From: a virus
IMG/VR virus record: IMGVR_UViG_3300042350_003308
Coordinates: 1-20,697 of that record
DNA: 20,697 bases
Strand: one strand, 5' to 3'
The stretch's first letter is position 1. The number at the start of each line of letters is the position of its first letter. Shown one piece after another: positions 280 through 20,697 of this stretch. A program made the translations under genes and the position numbers. The notes beneath the pieces are model-generated. The model made no database searches, had not been told where the DNA came from, and was given only the letters and a program-made list of their open reading frames with translations.

Positions 280-768
280 TTATCCTCTTTTCAAAATAGT
301 AATTTTTCTTTTACTGTATGTTGGGAAACCTTCTGTTTTCACTTCTGGTAACTCTAGATTGATTACAGTTTCAACCTTATGTGGAATTTGACTCATTAAA
401 TGCTTTGATTGTTGCACTGATGGCTCAAACTCCATAGCATATTCTAGCACAATGGTATCTACTCCTTTTAAAAAAGATAGTAGTTCTTCATATTCTCCAT
501 CACCCTCTATATCAAAACCAAGAATTGCTACACCTATTGTTCCATATAGGTTTTGATTACGACTAAGCCATTCGGAAAATGTTCCATGAAAAGAATCAGG
601 AATTGACATTAGTGGATCAATAGAATGTAGTTTATTGGCATCAATCCCAATTAAATGCTCCCCATAACTACCAACATCAATCACATTGTCACATGAAGAT
701 AAATAATGTGAAGCAATAATTTTTCTAATTTTATATTGTTCAGAAATTAAATATTCCCAGCGTTTCAA
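280..768 (-). CDS. methyltransferase-like protein, divergent (162 aa)
   Basis: Possible class I (Rossmann) SAM-dependent methyltransferase, substrate unknown. Residues 29-36 (VIDVGSYG) resemble motif I, IDP at 50-52 suits the acidic end of strand 2, and 80-88 (VAILGFDIE region) and 105-115 (TIVLEYAMEFE) look like strands 4 and 5, with an FkbM-like flavour. Motif I is poor in glycine, so it may bind SAM weakly or be a degenerate partner of the methyltransferase just upstream, with which it overlaps by 29 bases. The start is TTG, chosen because a perfect AGGAGG lies four bases before it. It contains the peptide QSKHLMS, which recurs in the tape measure protein. A methyltransferase fold is inferred from a few motifs only. 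Confidence 0.6.
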   Translation of the reverse strand: MKRWEYLISEQYKIRKIIASHYLSSCDNVIDVGSYGEHLIGIDANKLHSIDPLMSIPDSFHGTFSEWLSRNQNLYGTIGVAILGFDIEGDGEYEELLSFLKGVDTIVLEYAMEFEPSVQQSKHLMSQIPHKVETVINLELPEVKTEGFPTYSKRKITILKRG

Positions 769-11232: not shown

Positions 11233-11898
11233 TCAGACAGTTCCGCCAGCATCTTCAACATAAAGTTGCATATTTGAAACAGAAGCGATCACTTGATATG
11301 AAGAAGGGTTGTTAGAACTTACACCAGCAGCTCTTTCTAGAGAGCAATAAAATGATTGATTTGTAAGACCAGAAGCATCTGATGTTAGAACAATTTCATA
11401 TTTTCCAGCACCAACTCTTGTAGATCTTGGTGTTGTTTTTAGTGTATGATTAGCAACATTTGCAACTGCACTTGCAGTATTGATAAAACTATGAATTGGC
11501 ATACTGAATTGATACTCTGCAATCTCCGTAGGGCCTGATCCAGATATACCATTATATAGTCTGAGAATAAATCTACCATCTTCACCACCAGCACCATAAA
11601 TTGAAACACCTGGGAAATTTAGAACAACTTTATAGTATCTACTTGGATCAATTGAAACCCTATTATCTGCACCACCAGAACCGCTCTCATCTTTTAGTCC
11701 AATAATTTCAACTTCGCTACCATATGTGTTTGAATTTGCTGTACTAGTAGTAACATTTTTTAAGGCTAGTACTCCAATTGCTTTGTCATCATTGGCAGTT
11801 TTAACCTGCTCAATATTTGTTGACATTTGAGCAAGCCTGTCACTTGAAAGCGGTGTTCCGTCTGTCCAAGATACAAATGAATAGTTTTCGTAAGCCAT
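11233..11898 (-). CDS. tail appendage / minor tail protein
   Basis: A 221-residue protein likely exposed at the tail tip. Its start, with FVSWTDGTPLSSDRLAQMSTN at about 8-28, resembles the opening of small minor tail proteins of actinobacterial phages. The rest is serine-, threonine- and glycine-rich and strand-rich (YYKVVLNFPGVSIYG, FILRLYN, KYEIVLTSDA), in keeping with a beta-sandwich receptor-binding or decoration domain. No enzyme motif is visible. It follows the S74 fibre by 13 bases, with AGAGG as its ribosome site. A link to host binding is inferred from position and composition. Confidence 0.7.
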   Translation of the reverse strand: MAYENYSFVSWTDGTPLSSDRLAQMSTNIEQVKTANDDKAIGVLALKNVTTSTANSNTYGSEVEIIGLKDESGSGGADNRVSIDPSRYYKVVLNFPGVSIYGAGGEDGRFILRLYNGISGSGPTEIAEYQFSMPIHSFINTASAVANVANHTLKTTPRSTRVGAGKYEIVLTSDASGLTNQSFYCSLERAAGVSSNNPSSYQVIASVSNMQLYVEDAGGTV

Positions 11899-11911: not shown

Positions 11912-13531
11912 TTATACCTCTTCTAAGGCTTTTAGTCTATTTTCTAGACTTTTTATCTTTTCATCAAAAGTTCTTAGAATTTGATGGTGGAGAACAGGAA
12001 GCATGTCATAAGCAATATAGTCTGGCTTACCTTCTGAGTCATACTGTAAGATTTCTGTAACCCCAGCAGACTCTACATCTTCCGCAATAAAACCATATGA
12101 CCAAGGCCTTTCATCACCATCATAAATAGAGAATCCCTCTTTATATTTGAATCTAACTGGTTTTATTGATAAAAGACCTTCTGTATTGAAACTATATTCG
12201 CTAATATCTTCTTTAAATCTAATTGATGAAGCACTGTTGTATCCGATTAGATTGTTGGATATAACCATCATATTTCTACCACCAGTTAATGACTGGCTAT
12301 ACACACCGAGGTTTTGAGAAATTAGCATCATATCGGTTCCGTCAGAATTTTGAAGAACCCAAGGAGCCGTGTTTGCGTTTGTCGTTAAACTTGCAACTCC
12401 AGAAATAGCACCACTCATCGTGATTGCTGCACCTACTATAATGGAGTTAAATGCTCTAACAGTTGTCAGAACACCGTTTGAAAGTTCTACATCTCCACCA
12501 GCTTTGTTAAGAGTAAGATTAGCACCAGCTGTTCCATTAGCTTTTGCTTGAATTTCATTTGCATCAAAAGCAACATGAGCACCTGTTGGGCTTCCAACTA
12601 TAAGTATTCCTGTATTTGCGGTTAAAGATGCTGGAAGTGTTGAACCTCCAAATATTCTTGTATAATCACCAGTAGCACTTAGTAGGAGCTCACTATTAGA
12701 ATTTATATAAGCATTTGGATATAAAGTTAAAATTGCACCATCACTTAGTTGCATAACTCCATTACCATATAAATAAGCATTACTTCCAGAAGCCAAATTT
12801 GCAACTTGAAGCTGATTTTCAATGCTAACATTTCCACCACTAATAACAGTTGTTTTATCATTACTATCTGTAACTGTAAGTGATGTTGGTTCAATTGTTG
12901 TTCCATATTGTGTTGATATACCATTGCCTCTAACATTAATAGAACTTCTTGAAATTGTAATATAATTGCTTGGGCTTGATGCATTATCTTGAAAAACTAA
13001 AACATTACCGTCAAGAGTGGAGGCATCAGAGATAAATTTTACTGTAGCGTCTGTTGATTGGATTGTATTTGAAGTTATCTGCCATCCACCAATGCTTCCA
13101 GTAGTCGCTTGAATATTTCCTCTTACTAAAACATTTGCAAATTCTGCATATCCGTTTGCAAAAATAGCCCAACCATTAGAATTAGCAATGTAACCATTGC
13201 TTGATATGGTTTGATCTACAAGAATAAAGTCCGCTGATAATAAGTCAGAAGTTACAGAGTATGGCTGAAGCCTTATACTTTCTGGTTTGAGCGATGCCTT
13301 ATTAACTGTATCTAAAATAAAATTTTCAACTTGACTTTTATTTTTTGCTTGTTTTCTTACTCTTGTTGGATCTGTTCCTGTAAGGGAAAAGTTAAAATCA
13401 AATACTGAATATTTGCTAGAGTCAATTAATGTAGAAGAGGTTCCATCATGGTTGTGACCGCCTCCTTTAAAGAAGACAATCTTGTTCTCACCATCACCTT
13501 TAATTGTATTACCAGTAAGCCTATCGCCCAT
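11912..13531 (-). CDS. tail fibre with C-terminal peptidase S74 chaperone
   Basis: A 539-residue trimeric-type fibre. The N-terminus (GGGHNHDGTSS at about 24-34) should attach to the tail. The middle is repetitive beta structure with a GSIGGWQI element near 150-158. The last 105 residues are an intramolecular chaperone of the S74 family: SSIRFKEDI with S435 and K440, the Ser-Lys pair five residues apart that cuts the chaperone off after trimerisation; YGFIAEDVE; YDMLPVLHHQI; and a terminal coiled coil (KIKSLENRLKALEE). The start is ATG at 13531, not an upstream one at 13603, because AGGAAGG lies seven bases before it and the TAATG junction matches neighbouring genes. Confidence 0.9.
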   Translation of the reverse strand: MGDRLTGNTIKGDGENKIVFFKGGGHNHDGTSSTLIDSSKYSVFDFNFSLTGTDPTRVRKQAKNKSQVENFILDTVNKASLKPESIRLQPYSVTSDLLSADFILVDQTISSNGYIANSNGWAIFANGYAEFANVLVRGNIQATTGSIGGWQITSNTIQSTDATVKFISDASTLDGNVLVFQDNASSPSNYITISRSSINVRGNGISTQYGTTIEPTSLTVTDSNDKTTVISGGNVSIENQLQVANLASGSNAYLYGNGVMQLSDGAILTLYPNAYINSNSELLLSATGDYTRIFGGSTLPASLTANTGILIVGSPTGAHVAFDANEIQAKANGTAGANLTLNKAGGDVELSNGVLTTVRAFNSIIVGAAITMSGAISGVASLTTNANTAPWVLQNSDGTDMMLISQNLGVYSQSLTGGRNMMVISNNLIGYNSASSIRFKEDISEYSFNTEGLLSIKPVRFKYKEGFSIYDGDERPWSYGFIAEDVESAGVTEILQYDSEGKPDYIAYDMLPVLHHQILRTFDEKIKSLENRLKALEEV

Positions 13532-16500
13532 TATGAAGCCTTCCTTAGAGTTATTGAGTGAGTCAATGTATCTCCAACATTCATATCGTGAGATACAACC
13601 CAATAGTCAACGTCAGTAATGTCTAGTGCATCAAAAGACGATATTCTAATTCTATCACCAAGTTGTATTTTTGGCATTGCAAGTGTATTTATAGTAATAA
13701 TCGGAACTGGATCTTGCATTTTATTTATGATAAAAGTAGCCAATTTCTGGGCCTGAACAGCATCTGTAATGTATGGGCTATCTATAACAACTTCCTTTAA
13801 ACCGTACTTTCTAATATTTTCCGTCAAGGCTTCTGATTGCTCCATAACTTGACTATTTTGTTCTGTAGTTATAACTGGAATACCAGCGATAGCAGCATAT
13901 GCAACTTTGTCTGTTAAAGGATTGGTTCCTTCTAAGAAAACAATTTCACCAGAATTAACATTGTTTGAAGCAGCAACAATTAAATTGGCACTATATGCTT
14001 GAGCCTCAAACTTATGAATTTCAATTAAGTCTGGTTCTTGGTTGTCAATCTCAGAAATCAAAGGATTCTTAACATTAAAAGCTGGGGCTTTGTCATACTG
14101 AGCATCAAAGTACTTAACCTCTCTAACAAGAGCATTAGCGGTATGTGTTGCTGCTGTTGTATCTAAAGCGCCTCTTTCAAGATTCAAAAACTCAGAAGAA
14201 GACTTAGATGAATATTTTATAATTTCACTATCAATTTTTATATAACCAGAAGTTGGAAATACTGGATCGTCTGTTGTATTTACATACATACTAGTAGCAT
14301 TTGCAGTAAGATTTGCTGTTAGTGTTACAGCTGCTAAAGATGTAGGATCTTGTGCTCTCCATAAAGACTGTGTTCCAATTTTGGCAGATGAAAGACCAGC
14401 AACCTTTACAACAACCTTATTTGCTTGAAGTTGAACATTATAGTCACCAGAAACAATATTGGTAGAGTCAGAAAATGTTGACTGTATTTGGCTATGTTGA
14501 GCAATTGTATTTTCATAGAACCTGTAGAAGTGTTCGTATCTTGCATAATCTTCTTCATCAATGTAAAGCCTTCCAAGATCTGCAATCGCTATGCCATCAA
14601 TAATTTCTCTGATTGTGCTGTTACCACCGTATAGGAATGGGAATTTACCAAGGGGTTGCATTTGAGTTGCTGTATATCTATCGCTAATCTCCTCTTGAGA
14701 TAGTTCTCTTTTATATATTGCAAACTCATCAATATCAAGACTTCTAATTGTTGAAGGTGCAACTTCACCAGTATTTGCAGTAAATGATGCACCACGACCT
14801 CCAATTGTTATATCACGATTAGCCCAAGAAACCTCGCCAGAAATACTACCTTCCGTATCAACTTTTACACCATTGATGTAATACTTCATATTTCCACCTT
14901 GATGTGTTACAACTAGATGTGAAAATGCTGAGTTTGATAGGGCAGTTATTGTGCTTACAGTTTTAGTTCCACCGTTATCAATAATTTTAAAACCATTTGA
15001 AGATGAATTACTGTAGAACTCAAACCCAGATGTTGGAGATGAGTTATTCCATGTGCTCAAGTATTCACCAGTACTGCTATATGGACTTCCTGTTGGCTTA
15101 ACATATAACTCAATTGTCCATTCACTTGTGTATAGCGGACTTACTGAGTTAGCAAAATCAAGAGTTTCGTCATATGGAATTCTAATATACGCTGAGTTAG
15201 ATAATGTTACAGCCTTATTATCAGATTCACCAACAATTCCAGAAGCAATTCCTAGAGTTGGTGTTCCAACATAAACACCATTGTTTCTATAGTGGTTAAA
15301 GTTATCTTCATCTTTATCATAACTTTCTTCTTTAGATCCAACTGAATCTAGTGGGACAATAGTGTAGCAATCAGTTGCTGGTATCAAAGATGTTGTATTT
15401 GCACCAATATATTTGATGGATAGTGATAAATCAAATGTTGAAGCATAGTGAGCAAACTCTAATCTAATTTTATAGGGTTGACCTGGTGTTAAATTAAGGT
15501 GTCTTCCTAAAGTTTCATAAGATGTTACTGTTGTTGATATGATATTCCTTTTCCATGAATCAATTACAAGAGTATCATCAAGATATAGCCTTACAGCTCC
15601 CCTTCTTACAGTTATTACAAAATCTTCTCCAGAGGCATCGTGTTTAATTGGAACATAATAGCCATCCATAACACCATTATAAAAACTTCCATAAGTATTA
15701 CCATCGGCTCCAGTAAAAGTATAAGATTGAAAGTTGATAGCAGCATTTGAGTTTGAAATACTTTTACTTAATGTTACAAAAGATGGAGATGTAAAAGCTT
15801 TTTCTCCAAGTGCTAAGTCTAATGGACTTAGAACTTTGTCAATTGCATCTGCAAGAATGTCTCCTACAGTTGTATTCTGCCTTCTTCCTTCTGGCATCCC
15901 CCAGAACCTTGCTCTAAACCCAGTTGATGGAACAATTACGTTTCCAGATCTATCAATTGTTGGTTCTTTAAACGACCAACTCGCAATTGGGTTTAATTTT
16001 TTAATACCGTCAGAATATGAATTTAATTGGTTATAGTCACCTTTTGGAAAACCAGCATGCATTAGAAGATTTTCAATAGAGTCTCCAACAGTTGTGTTTT
16101 GTTGAAAGAATCCTCTTTCCATTGTTTTTTCTGTTAAGAACTTTGACCAGTCATTGGCAGAAAAACCTACAGACATTTCTGATGAGGCGCTCCAGTCATC
16201 AATATAAAATGTACCGCCAGATATATACTCATATGTATCAAAACTTACAATAGCATCTGTTGAATGGGCTACTGCTGTCGTATTTGCATAACCTCTCTGT
16301 GAAGCGGTAAGACTTTTATCGCTTGCTTTAGCAGAACATAAAATAACTTCTTCGCTCTGGGTTCCAGCATCAATTTTAATTGTAAACTCATTTCCAGCAC
16401 CACCGTCTGGAAATATGTCTGCATCATAGACATTAATTGTTGTTGATGAATTACTTATATTTGCAGATAGTGCGGTGTTTGAAATAATGTCATCACTTCT

Positions 16501-17415
16501 TTTAATCTGCCATCCAGTTGAAACATGAACCTTAAGATCTTTATACATATACGGACCATACTCAGAACCAGCACTAAACCTTGAAAAGTCTTTGCTTGTA
16601 TTATCTAAAGAAACAGAAAGTTTAGAAGAACTTGAACCTCCAATTGGCAAGTTTGTTTCATGTAGATCTCTAGTACGAGATATTGAATAGTTAATAACAT
16701 AATCTGTAATATCTACTTGATAAAGAGGAACTATTGAATGAATTCTTGCATAATCTGTAGGGTTTTTAGTTGTGTATACAGTTACTTTGATTTTAGTTGT
16801 TGCGTAACTAGCAGCTTTTGCAGCAGCGGTTTCAATAAGATGTTCTTTAAAATAAGTACCGTCTTCTATCAAACCAGTTTCGTCTAAGATTGATGTAGCA
16901 CCATTAAAAACTTCAAGTCTATAATTTTTAATTTGGCCATGAAACTCTGCTGTGTTGATGACAATTTTATTAACTTTTCTTTCATCAAATGTCATTTCAA
17001 CATATGGGTCTGTAGCAAACCCATAATAATCAGTATATGTAGGATCTGTATTTGCTTGACTCTTTGTTCCAGACCACCAGCCATATTCTAAGTTATTATC
17101 CAAAGAAGATGGCATAGCAAAATATGTTCCGTCTGACTTAATTACATCACCATATTTATCTTTTGCATTGCATACTGCCCAAGTAAAGGTCTGTCTTTCA
17201 AGACCATTTCCAACCTGATCTTTTGAAAAATAATATCCAATGCTACCTTTTGCAGTATTTGAGTGAGGGTCGTTTGTTGTAACAGATAGATTATCTAAAT
17301 GTCTTAAATCCAAAAAATCTATAATAATTCTTGGCTTTACTTTTTGGGCATAGGAAGTTATGGCAGTATTAAAAGAGTTAGATAAAGTTTTGCCATAAAT
17401 ATCAGTAGTTAACAT
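13531..17415 (-). CDS. large tail/baseplate protein with PA14-like and LamG-like domains
   Basis: A 1294-residue tail-tip protein. Residues about 130-230 look like a discoidin-type beta sandwich. About 300-390 and 1022-1100 hold two related modules of the form FP-G-I-ID-E, then RG...TTA..H...A.V. About 540-665 resembles PA14: DGYYVPIKHD, VRLYLDDTLVIDSW, then a strand starting GQPYKIRLEF. About 730-915 is a LamG/jelly-roll domain (WTIELYVKPTG, FSHLVVTHQGG, YINGVKV, LDIDEFAIYKRELS). The C-terminal 150 residues resemble the end of baseplate hub-like proteins. Both lectin-type folds suggest binding of surface polysaccharide. It sits after the tape measure and small tail genes, where siphophages encode the tail-tip hub. 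The ATG overlaps the previous stop as TAATG, with GAGG before it. Confidence 0.82.
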   Translation of the reverse strand: MLTTDIYGKTLSNSFNTAITSYAQKVKPRIIIDFLDLRHLDNLSVTTNDPHSNTAKGSIGYYFSKDQVGNGLERQTFTWAVCNAKDKYGDVIKSDGTYFAMPSSLDNNLEYGWWSGTKSQANTDPTYTDYYGFATDPYVEMTFDERKVNKIVINTAEFHGQIKNYRLEVFNGATSILDETGLIEDGTYFKEHLIETAAAKAASYATTKIKVTVYTTKNPTDYARIHSIVPLYQVDITDYVINYSISRTRDLHETNLPIGGSSSSKLSVSLDNTSKDFSRFSAGSEYGPYMYKDLKVHVSTGWQIKRSDDIISNTALSANISNSSTTINVYDADIFPDGGAGNEFTIKIDAGTQSEEVILCSAKASDKSLTASQRGYANTTAVAHSTDAIVSFDTYEYISGGTFYIDDWSASSEMSVGFSANDWSKFLTEKTMERGFFQQNTTVGDSIENLLMHAGFPKGDYNQLNSYSDGIKKLNPIASWSFKEPTIDRSGNVIVPSTGFRARFWGMPEGRRQNTTVGDILADAIDKVLSPLDLALGEKAFTSPSFVTLSKSISNSNAAINFQSYTFTGADGNTYGSFYNGVMDGYYVPIKHDASGEDFVITVRRGAVRLYLDDTLVIDSWKRNIISTTVTSYETLGRHLNLTPGQPYKIRLEFAHYASTFDLSLSIKYIGANTTSLIPATDCYTIVPLDSVGSKEESYDKDEDNFNHYRNNGVYVGTPTLGIASGIVGESDNKAVTLSNSAYIRIPYDETLDFANSVSPLYTSEWTIELYVKPTGSPYSSTGEYLSTWNNSSPTSGFEFYSNSSSNGFKIIDNGGTKTVSTITALSNSAFSHLVVTHQGGNMKYYINGVKVDTEGSISGEVSWANRDITIGGRGASFTANTGEVAPSTIRSLDIDEFAIYKRELSQEEISDRYTATQMQPLGKFPFLYGGNSTIREIIDGIAIADLGRLYIDEEDYARYEHFYRFYENTIAQHSQIQSTFSDSTNIVSGDYNVQLQANKVVVKVAGLSSAKIGTQSLWRAQDPTSLAAVTLTANLTANATSMYVNTTDDPVFPTSGYIKIDSEIIKYSSKSSSEFLNLERGALDTTAATHTANALVREVKYFDAQYDKAPAFNVKNPLISEIDNQEPDLIEIHKFEAQAYSANLIVAASNNVNSGEIVFLEGTNPLTDKVAYAAIAGIPVITTEQNSQVMEQSEALTENIRKYGLKEVVIDSPYITDAVQAQKLATFIINKMQDPVPIITINTLAMPKIQLGDRIRISSFDALDITDVDYWVVSHDMNVGDTLTHSITLRKAS
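13539..13545 (-). promoter_or_regulatory. Shine-Dalgarno site (AGGAAGG) deciding the fibre start
   Basis: AGGAAGG is seven bases upstream of ATG at 13531, within the last codons of the large tail protein gene. It fixes the fibre start 24 codons downstream of the longest open reading frame. Confidence 0.75.
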
Positions 17416-17915: not shown

Positions 17916-18334
17916 TATAATTCCTCAAAAACAATTGTTACATTATAAAAAGCGTAGCCTTGTTCAAAATCCCTTCTAACAAGATCTTCATTATATGAAG
18001 TTACAAAAACACTTGTATTATAAGTATAAGAATTAGATGTGTCTTTAATAACTAATGTTGCAGATTGTTTTGCTTCAACAAGAGTTCTTAAAAAATTTCT
18101 GCCAGCTCTGCCATCAATTGTATGATCTGTTGATTCTGGAAGAAGGGTATATGTAAATGCAAAACTTCTTTTTGATTTCTTAAAGTACTTTTTAGTCAGG
18201 CCTCTTGAAAGTTCTACTACACTAGAGTTAATTGCGTAGTCTGAGGATAGTGTTCTTCCATGTTCTGTAATTTCTGTTCCATTTATTGAGATTATATTTA
18301 CTAGATCTGTAAGTTGGTTATCTATGACAGCCAT
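17915..18334 (-). CDS. minor tail protein, paralogue A
   Basis: A 139-residue tail protein, sister of the gene after it. It has EHGRT (24-28 region), KYFKK, a long strand (SFAFTYTLLP), DGRAGRNFLRTL, VFVTSYNEDLVRRD and a C-terminal IVFEEL strand, aligning with its neighbour almost throughout but sharing only a minority of residues, so the duplication is old. It is likely an all-beta structural protein at the distal end of the tail tube. The ATG overlaps the tape measure stop by one base (TAATG), and AGAGG stands nearby. No enzyme motif is visible. Confidence 0.7.
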   Translation of the reverse strand: MAVIDNQLTDLVNIISINGTEITEHGRTLSSDYAINSSVVELSRGLTKKYFKKSKRSFAFTYTLLPESTDHTIDGRAGRNFLRTLVEAKQSATLVIKDTSNSYTYNTSVFVTSYNEDLVRRDFEQGYAFYNVTIVFEEL

Positions 18335-20697
18335 TACATACCTCTATTAATACCACTGTAAGTTCTAACAACCCTTTTATTTGTACCAGCGGCTCTTTGA
18401 TTATTGGGTACAACTTTGATATTGTATTCCTTCATCATTGATTCAAACCATTCTCTTTCGCCAATAAAATTGTCAACACATATGTTAATATTTTGCTCAG
18501 AATAAGATTCAGTTCCATTTGCTGACTTTATTGAAGAAGTATTTGCATTTCTAATTGAATTTAGACTTTCAAGAGTTGCTAACCCAATATTTCTAACTGC
18601 TTTAGAACTAACAACATATTCACCACCATGCAAAAGTGTTGGAATAGATTGAGAACTGAAAGCATTTATATATCCACCATTTGCTTTTTTAAATGTATAT
18701 TTTGGAGGATTATATGGCTTTATTGTGTTAACAGGCATTGGGTTACTAGGCATTGGGTTACTAGGCATTGGGTTCTTAGGCATTGGGTTACTAGGCATTG
18801 GGTTACTAGGCATTGGGTTCTTAGGCATTGGGTTACTAGGCATTGGGTTAGATAAAGAAATTGTTTCAACAGGCTTTGGTTTAAGATAAGGCATTGCTAC
18901 GGGTGGTTTAAAACCTGTGGTGCTTCCTATTGGGTTACCTATTGGGTTATTAGGCATTGGGAGATAAGGCATTGGGTTAAAAGGCATTGGCTTAAAATCA
19001 CTCATTAAATGCTTTGACTGACCACTGCTTACTGTTGGTGCTGTTCCACCACCAGAGCCTCCTCCCCCTCCTCCAGAGTTAGCAGCGTTATCCATTTCTG
19101 AAGCAATGCCAGCAAGCAGTGGTGAAAGTCCAGCAGCAAGGGTTTGAACCTTGCTTAAAATATGACCAACAGTTCTTTCCATTGCGTGCTGAATAGATTT
19201 ATTAGCTCTATCCATTGCATTCACCCAAACAAGGAATGGATTATTATTTCTTAGGATATCTCTTAATCTAGAGAATATATTTCTAAGGGAACCTGGTTGT
19301 TCTTTTCCACCAAGCATAATATTTCCAATTCTCTTCATTTGGCCAGGAAGTAAATCTAGTTTTTTACCAAAAAGATCTTTTGCTTGCTGTGACCATTGAC
19401 CAGAATTAATTTGTGTAGGAATTGCATTAAGCATTCCTATAGTTGCACCAATTACTGTTGTATTATCTTTTGCATTAGTTCCAAGTCCATATTTATCAAC
19501 CGCCGTATTTACAAGTTGATCAAGACTTGTAGTAAAAGCACCTACTGCTTCATTTGGAAGACCAGTAGTGATTTTAGTTGCCAATTCTGTCATCATATTT
19601 GCAAATTCTGCTTTACTGTCGGCTGCAACTCCCTTAGCAGCATTTAGCAGTTGATTTAATTGGTTATTAAACTCATCAATTGTATTTGGAGGGAATTCAG
19701 TAATTTTTTCTGCTGCTTTCTGGAAGTCTTCAATTACTGAGTCGTAGTATTCTGAAGCAGCCTCTTTTGCTTCCTTAATTGCTTCACGAATAGCATCTCT
19801 ATTTTCTTTTGCAAGATCCTCTGCTCTCTTAGTATCTAGGTCTGATACTGATTTTGCAGATTCAATCTTTGCTTTTTGCTCCTCCAGATCAAGCATTCTT
19901 GCATCATCAATACGACCTTCATAAATAGCCAAAGCGCGATTGCGAACATAATTTTGTCTATTAAGTTCTCTTTCATCAAGCATCTCTCTTCTTTTAAGTT
20001 CGTATTCTTTTGTTCTTGTGAGAGATTCCTCTGCTTTTTCAAGAGCATCTATTGTTTTAATTTGATCATCAAATACCTTAAGAGCAGCTTCTTTTTGATC
20101 CTGTAGTGCTTGCGTGAGTTGACCTGTGTAGTCTTTGACATTTTCAGCAACATAATCAAGAGTTTTGTCAACAAATTCCTGCAGCATATCTCTGAGAGCT
20201 TGGCCTACTGAACCTGCGCTACCACCTACTCCCTCTTCAATGCCCTCACCTAAAGCATCTCCAATAATTTCACCTTGATCCTTTGCCTCTTCTTTAGCCC
20301 CATCAGTTGCTGATTTAACAATTTCAGATCCATCTCCTTGTTTCATTGCGTCATCAATAAAGCCAAGAATTCCTTCAAGAGCGCTAACAACACCTTTTGT
20401 TAAGCTTTTAACTCCAGGTATCCAACTTGTTACGTAAGCTGCTGCTTTAGCAACCTGCAACCAGCCTGAAATAATAAATCTAAAGACATGGGCAAATGGC
20501 CCCATAAGACCAATAATTGCTTTACCAACACCAGAAAGAACTTGTTTAATACCAGCCATAAAGTCTCCCTTAAAGATCTTTATGAATCCGCCTACAAAGT
20601 TAACAATTCCCCTAATAAGAGCAGATATTGGTTTTAATATGAAGCCTATGGCCTTGGCAACAACATTCCTCATTAAGAATGCAATAACACTTGCTAC
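18334..20697 (-). CDS. tape measure protein, C-terminal part (5' end outside window)
   Basis: Tail-length ruler and DNA-injection protein; 787 residues are visible. The frame stays open to the right edge, so the Met at 20673 is internal. From that Met: residues 1-105 are hydrophobic and may be membrane-inserting (ALIRGIVNFVGGFIKIF); 187-325 form a charged coiled coil with NYVRNRALAIYEGRIDDARM; 534-549 is a glycine-rich linker; about 559-646 is a proline/methionine-rich tract of NPMP units; and the C-terminus has GGYINAFS, then IPTLLHGGEYVVSSKAV, a motif common in tape measure proteins. It is the most upstream tail gene seen and is followed by small tail proteins and the hub, the standard siphophage order. 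Confidence 0.9.
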   Translation of the reverse strand, partial: VASVIAFLMRNVVAKAIGFILKPISALIRGIVNFVGGFIKIFKGDFMAGIKQVLSGVGKAIIGLMGPFAHVFRFIISGWLQVAKAAAYVTSWIPGVKSLTKGVVSALEGILGFIDDAMKQGDGSEIVKSATDGAKEEAKDQGEIIGDALGEGIEEGVGGSAGSVGQALRDMLQEFVDKTLDYVAENVKDYTGQLTQALQDQKEAALKVFDDQIKTIDALEKAEESLTRTKEYELKRREMLDERELNRQNYVRNRALAIYEGRIDDARMLDLEEQKAKIESAKSVSDLDTKRAEDLAKENRDAIREAIKEAKEAASEYYDSVIEDFQKAAEKITEFPPNTIDEFNNQLNQLLNAAKGVAADSKAEFANMMTELATKITTGLPNEAVGAFTTSLDQLVNTAVDKYGLGTNAKDNTTVIGATIGMLNAIPTQINSGQWSQQAKDLFGKKLDLLPGQMKRIGNIMLGGKEQPGSLRNIFSRLRDILRNNNPFLVWVNAMDRANKSIQHAMERTVGHILSKVQTLAAGLSPLLAGIASEMDNAANSGGGGGGSGGGTAPTVSSGQSKHLMSDFKPMPFNPMPYLPMPNNPIGNPIGSTTGFKPPVAMPYLKPKPVETISLSNPMPSNPMPKNPMPSNPMPSNPMPKNPMPSNPMPSNPMPVNTIKPYNPPKYTFKKANGGYINAFSSQSIPTLLHGGEYVVSSKAVRNIGLATLESLNSIRNANTSSIKSANGTESYSEQNINICVDNFIGEREWFESMMKEYNIKVVPNNQRAAGTNKRVVRTYSGINRGM
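18734..18850 (-). repeat. 15-bp tandem repeat in the tape measure gene, AAB pattern
   Basis: Seven complete 15-bp units and a 12-bp partial eighth. The plus-strand unit is GGCATTGGGTTACTA (A) or GGCATTGGGTTCTTA (B), in order A-A-B-A-A-B-A-a, so a 45-bp period overlies the 15-bp one. Units of each type match exactly. The encoded five-residue unit is (S/K)NPMP, with the order set by A and B. Confidence 0.95.
18953..18997 (-). repeat. three degenerate 15-bp units of the same repeat
   Basis: Three consecutive units related to the main array: GGCATTGGGAGATAA, GGCATTGGGTTAAAA and GGCATTGGCTTAAAA. They encode PMP-centred pentads (FNPMP, YLPMP, NNPMP-like). They are separated from the main array by about 100 bases holding further Pro/Gly-rich code, and look like older, drifted copies. 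Confidence 0.8.

Follow-up and report, generated by a model that had tools for sequence, protein, structure and literature searches.

We describe a coding minisatellite in the tape measure protein (TMP) gene of a phage, an array of identical in-frame units whose number and order change among near-identical phages. The reading we favour, at a probability of about 0.72, is that of a coding minisatellite whose product serves as a spacer tolerant of change, in a slot of the TMP that is open to exchange. The window, meaning the whole stretch of DNA analysed, is the IMG/VR virus record IMGVR_UViG_3300042350_003308, with 20,697 bases and a G+C content of 35.9%.

A two-level repeat in a tape measure gene

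The 3' part of the TMP gene was identified from open reading frames and profile matches at 18334..20697 on the minus strand, and its start lies beyond the end of the window. The fragment matches the TMP profile phrog_1272 (E=1.2e-9) and has no Pfam match above cut-off, an absence that does not exclude function. In a relative of the window (locus L008) the TMP is full length, and its 1876 residues match PF10145 (E=6.5e-11, 42.9 bits versus a cut-off of 33.2) through an N-terminal part that is absent from the window. The gene is a large one in a tail operon and is followed by distal tail proteins: downstream come two small proteins and then, in the window, a protein of 1294 residues with a match to the minor tail protein profile phrog_10359. 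This tail protein (window 13531-17415) carries Laminin_G_3 and PA14 domains.

A tblastn search of 50,697 phage records with the window TMP fragment gave nothing at E 1e-5. The N-terminal TMP part from L008 matches three records of two Streptomyces phages at 24%, and the TMP of Streptomyces phage Tomas has no NPMP-type array. The host is probably an actinobacterium, judging from a WhiB-like gene (PF02467) and from the matches of a DnaE-like polymerase, for which the best 20 of 1,357 matched records all belong to Streptomyces phages, at about 38% identity; by record count, Pseudomonas phages are the most numerous among the 1,357.

The array spans 18730..18849 on the minus strand and consists of eight in-frame 15-bp units with a 45-bp higher-order unit. 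Tandem Repeats Finder reports both levels, a period of 15 at 18722-18850 (8.6 copies, score 209) and a period of 45 at 18733-18850 (2.6 copies, 100% matches, score 236). Read from 18849 to 18730, the units are NPMPS and then pentads ending in K, S, S, K, S, S and V (SKSSKSSV). Every NPMP in the array is encoded AAC CCA ATG CCT, and the fifth codon is AGT, AAG or GTT. The longest exact runs are 28 bases at an offset of 15 and 73 at an offset of 45; 2,000 codon shuffles of this part of the gene reach no more than 11 and 13, respectively. Near-identical tandem units thus stand in frame, as in a coding minisatellite or variable-number tandem repeat (VNTR). The 15/45-bp repeat in a TMP gene that was originally predicted is confirmed by Tandem Repeats Finder, the in-frame reading and the TMP profile match, and the A-A-B-A-A-B-A-a order given for it is the plus-strand reading of these minus-strand units. 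The predicted recent amplification is also supported, since the units are identical even at synonymous sites and the flanks barely differ between phages. A plus-strand open reading frame at 18628-18855 (RHWVT repeats) was rejected as a gene, as it only reads the opposite strand of the array.

Older degenerate units of the NPMP motif (DFKPMPFNPMPYLPMPNNPIGNPIG; PMP/NPIG) lie on the minus strand at about 18925..18999, and the ruler ends in a Gly-rich linker, SGGGGGGSGGG, at 19045..19077 (minus strand); both are identical in the four alleles described below. At 18334..18684, also on the minus strand, lies a conserved C-terminal module (ANGGYINAF..IPTLLHGGEYVVSSKAVRNIG..NINICVDNF..EWFESMM).

Alleles in near-identical phages

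With the window, the lineage comprises six IMG/VR records, the other five contigs being 42905_002467 (loci L003, L009 and L013), 42924_003305 (L004, L008, L011 and L024), 42475_001856 (L005, L007, L025 and L075), 42475_004890 (L006, L010 and L027) and 42350_002806 (L012 and L076). Four of the six read through the array, and L006 and L012 do not extend to it. These four assembled metagenome contigs hold four alleles, SKSSKSSV in the window (8 units), SKSSSKSV in L003 (8 units), SKSSSS in L007 (6 units) and SKSSV in L008 (5 units), and in L007 the array is adjoined by a 30-bp duplication that adds an extra KPYTPPKYEF. The suggestion that copy number may vary between phages is borne out, and this polymorphism among near-identical genomes is that of a VNTR.

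On the 5' side of the array there are 0 mismatches over 1427 bp in all pairs of the four records. On the 3' side, the window differs from L003 at 1 of 5099 positions and from L008 at 1 of 4703, L003 and L008 are identical over 4703, and L007 has 2 mismatches in 311 against each of the other three. With flanks this similar and alleles this different, the array is the place that changes fast. The 1427 identical bases adjoin a mosaic TMP segment (20277..20697, minus strand) in which the window has diverged from its relatives, with 60 mismatches accumulated by 1848 bp when it is compared without gaps to any of the three array-carrying relatives, and a BLAST identity of 88% over 20203-20697 against L012.

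Some further observations concern the same records. The sole 3'-flank base separating the window from L003 and L008, 18356, lies directly beside one arm of a perfect 20-nt inverted repeat (11304-11323 / 18357-18376). Window positions 391-411 and 19000-19020 are identical at 20 of 21 bases, lie in the frames of two unrelated genes and read QSKHLMS in both. L006 and L007, both from sample 3300042475, share a 166-bp overlap with 2 mismatches, and this sample probably holds at least two strains together.

A search for tandem gains and losses of units between alleles finds exactly one 45-bp block, gained or lost in one event, between the window and L008. Going from L008 to L003 takes at least two events, the shortest route being a 60-bp gain (four units) with a 15-bp loss (one unit), and from L003 to L008 a single loss of three units suffices. 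The L007 array is shorter than that of the window by two units, with the 30-bp duplication next door. Expansion of a 45-bp block, as put forward in the original prediction, therefore holds for the window and L008 but fails as the sole step, given that the L003 order needs two events. Changes in multiples of 45 bp are seen in net allele lengths, which differ by 0 or 45 bp only, but not in every individual step.

Pattern searches also extended beyond the lineage. A degenerate two-unit NPMP pattern matched seven viral stretches, three of them from the window lineage; L014-L017 were discarded as array carriers because stops interrupt the NPMP frame within 60 residues of the match. A three-unit pattern matched five bacterial genome contigs (L019-L023), and L019-L021 were discarded as NPMP coding because another frame looks like the real one. 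In L022 and L023 (Planctomycetota and Dactylosporangium contigs), open frames read NPMP runs.

The stretch before the C-terminal module in relatives

Scanning with the C-terminal part of the gene (18337-18714) returned 52 loci, four of the same lineage (L003, L024, L025 and L027) and 48 distant ones that are 40-58% identical to the window module in the best segment. We parsed 51 frames, leaving out L027, which begins after the site. In 35 of the 51, two GGEYVV-type motifs are separated by more than 600 residues (702-1,884 from first to last), and L062 has a third motif between them. The other frames have two motifs 55 residues apart (one frame), a single motif (ten, including three of the window lineage) or are too short (five). 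Many frames are near copies of each other; sorted by what precedes the last motif, 49 of them form 27 groups.

NPMP is absent from all 48 distant TMP frames, of which L044 and L071 cover fewer than 150 residues before the motif. In the 105 residues before the last motif, proline makes up 26-30% in four lineage members and 2-8% in 26 other representatives. A low-complexity linker precedes the first motif in 21 of these 26, and several such linkers are themselves DNA tandem repeats (GGGT in L038 and L057, PGT in L030, GDI in L041). For six relatives with rulers 33-36% identical (L026, L028, L030, L036, L041 and L057), all found with the C-terminal module as query, blastp similarity stops at or before the Gly linker. 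Judged by these sequence comparisons, the part of the TMP that holds the array, from ruler to C-terminal module, is filled quite differently in each relative or group of relatives, a point that the original prediction does not make.

The exchange of this stretch was followed by blastn in 12 hand-picked pairs of relatives, with positions taken relative to the last motif. In four pairs (L043/L050, L042/L047, L045/L047 and L050/L053) the insert is unrelated, with both flanks 90-99% similar and no similarity detected across nearly the whole stretch between them. In one pair the insert is missing from one member: L038 and L057, with flanks 94% and 96% identical, hold about 2.1 kb and about 30 bases, respectively. 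The insert is partly common to both in five pairs (L042/L045, L043/L053, L033/L073, L029/L032 and L038/L040) and nearly all common in two (L047/L058 and L059/L066). The window slot is filled by the proline-rich stretch.

Among 20 slot pieces searched against Pfam, the only match above cut-off is a sortase (PF04203, E=1e-21) in the TMP insert of L062 (3037-6036). Sub-threshold matches are transglycosylase-like (L040, L069 and L073), to a metallopeptidase (L047) and to DUF6861 (L042 and L045). Ten slot pieces gave nothing above cut-off in NCBIfam, with a weak serralysin-type match in L043 and L047, and weak matches only in PHROGs (best E=2.1e-5, a transglycosylase family, L073). By eye and with no profile support, the L067 insert resembles an ADP-ribosyltransferase and the L033 insert a kinase; phmmer of three insert pieces (L067, L033 and L053) gave 0 matches among PDB sequences.

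One insert domain recurs in L038 (5113-5985), L039, L040, L050 and L053, with VHE, RxxIH, GHxxR and VDxxxTPK invariant in the five sequences. Among 13 further loci examined for it, the TMP motif lies in the same frame in 4 and is lacking in 9, the latter including frames of 2,722 and 2,737 residues (L094 and L097). Its structure model has a mean pLDDT of 68, and Foldseek found no match with E <= 0.001 in PDB and BFVD. In a second look with VIA at 188 chains, the best rows were KptA/Tpt1 (Z 5.0-5.2 over 83-87 residues), with DarT at about 4 over 105-106 residues, although an unrelated DNA-binding domain also reached Z 4.6 and a Z under 8 may mean little. The model thus hints weakly at a likeness to ADP-ribosyl-transfer folds. 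A broader scenario, which we hold only tentatively and consider somewhat unlikely, is an exchange slot in a family of uncultured actinophage-like phages, some of which would carry swappable effector-like cargo (sortase, perhaps zincin-like, ADP-ribosyltransferase-like) delivered into the host along with the TMP; on this view the NPMP array would be a minimal, cargo-free filling, a stalk adjustable in 15-residue steps.

A probable tolerant spacer, its alternatives and known systems

Slippage during replication, or else unequal recombination between units of identical sequence, is the most likely source of the allele changes. If unit identity drives these processes, the degenerate units and the Gly linker would be expected not to vary, as is the case. 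The product would be an unstructured proline-rich tether joining the helical ruler, at its Gly-linker end, to the conserved C-terminal module, and changes in the array may survive because such a spacer is unstructured. By analogy with phage TP901-1, the C-terminal module may dock in the tail-tip initiator complex. The spacer appears to sit in a TMP stretch that is free to change, where relatives carry unrelated segments or large inserts, so a change in copy number would alter tether length, probably at little cost. The extended strut of the original prediction did not find support, as the model for the last 248 residues of the protein is of low quality (mean pLDDT 40, 3 rows) and gives no confident structure at the array; the altered spacing at the tail tip that was also suggested is at most a possibility.

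An extended proline-rich chain measures about 3 angstrom per residue, so that 15 residues come to about 46 angstrom, near one typical tail-tube ring. As an alternative, selection could be tuning the spacer in 15-residue (45-bp) steps, with the repeat as a contingency locus, if the C-terminal module has to be placed at defined distances within the tip or lumen of the tail. From the array start to the shared flank, three differently built alleles each measure 150 nt (50 residues) and the fourth 105 nt (35 residues), with L007 swapping two units for its 30-bp duplication. When units were gained and lost at random in a simulation, 16,624 of 20,000 trials gave four distinct alleles; of these, three or more of the four lengths were equal in 2.1% and all lengths were congruent modulo three units in 2.5%, but this is a simple, home-made ad hoc model, and the four alleles are few and mutually dependent. 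Moreover, where a linker was found (21 of 26 other representatives), its main distance to the first motif varies between about 90 and 192 residues. We consider such tuning unlikely, while the equal span of three alleles, among four related ones, weakly suggests selection on length and is counted against pure neutrality, as length may matter.

An artefact of short-read assembly, with units collapsed or reordered, is very improbable. Assemblers are known to stumble over tandem arrays, and sample 3300042475 probably holds two strains, but the array is only 75-120 bp, shorter than the usual short read, and it is found in frame in contigs of three sample ids besides the window. The S-S-S-K order is unique to L003, so this allele is no mere mixture of the others. 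Least probable of all is that the repeat acts as DNA, a recombination or structural element with the protein incidental: the plus-strand array has a G4Hunter score of 0.73, above all 1,029 sliding windows of the record, but folding with DNA parameters predicts -1.4 kcal/mol at most and no quadruplex, all allele changes preserve the frame, and the two-S-unit pattern occurs in three stretches only, all kin of the window.

Several known systems come close to the array and its slot. Variation in TMP repeat number is already known: tape measures differ in how many 11-residue repeats they carry (Belcaid et al. 2011, PMC3271669), and there, as here, tandem units are gained and lost between phages. 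Those units, as described there, have 11 residues and W/F markers, whereas the window units are proline-rich, have five residues, follow the ruler and are identical in DNA save for the fifth codon. The array is likewise distinct from 11-/18-residue ruler repeats with a W/F marker, having a period of 5/15 residues and no W or F in its units. In a deletion series of phage TP901-1 (Mahony et al. 2016, PMC5099701), a TMP shortened by its 30 last residues yields heads only, whereas many of the internal repeats are dispensable; the C-terminus is placed inside the baseplate. In-frame length change is tolerated there too, with an essential C-terminus placed at the tail tip, but those are laboratory deletions of 11/18-residue repeats and other parts, whereas the window shows natural variation of a proline-rich spacer. 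A 21-bp in-frame TMP deletion is described in another phage (PMC8616913).

In actinobacteria, contractile injection systems have TMP-related effectors, Sle1 and Tme (PMC13277306, PMC11126660), which combine a TMP-like coiled coil with C-terminal regions of little mutual similarity or an active enzyme domain. They are not phages, however; in the phage relatives here the variable part precedes a conserved C-terminal module, and no enzyme-like insert is seen in the window. Polyvalent proteins (Iyer et al. 2017, PMC5512222) are cargo of several domains, thought to enter together with the DNA of the phage; one insert domain of the relatives is comparable in that large frames lacking the TMP motif have it too. 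That text makes no mention of tape measures, and the window slot holds only a spacer. Cell-wall enzyme domains within TMPs are already known (PMC3556154). Two papers pairing 'tape measure protein' with 'proline-rich' (PMC3556154, PMC4559383) were set aside, as they use 'proline-rich' of other proteins. A literature search, with most subscription journals outside it, returned no earlier account of proline pentads, a natural allele series or the exchange slot.

The alleles amount to a natural length series of one phage protein in a near-constant background, which makes the question of TMP C-terminal spacing testable. A TMP stretch in which large inserts are exchanged among relatives is also relevant to the ways in which tail proteins gain cargo and deliver it.
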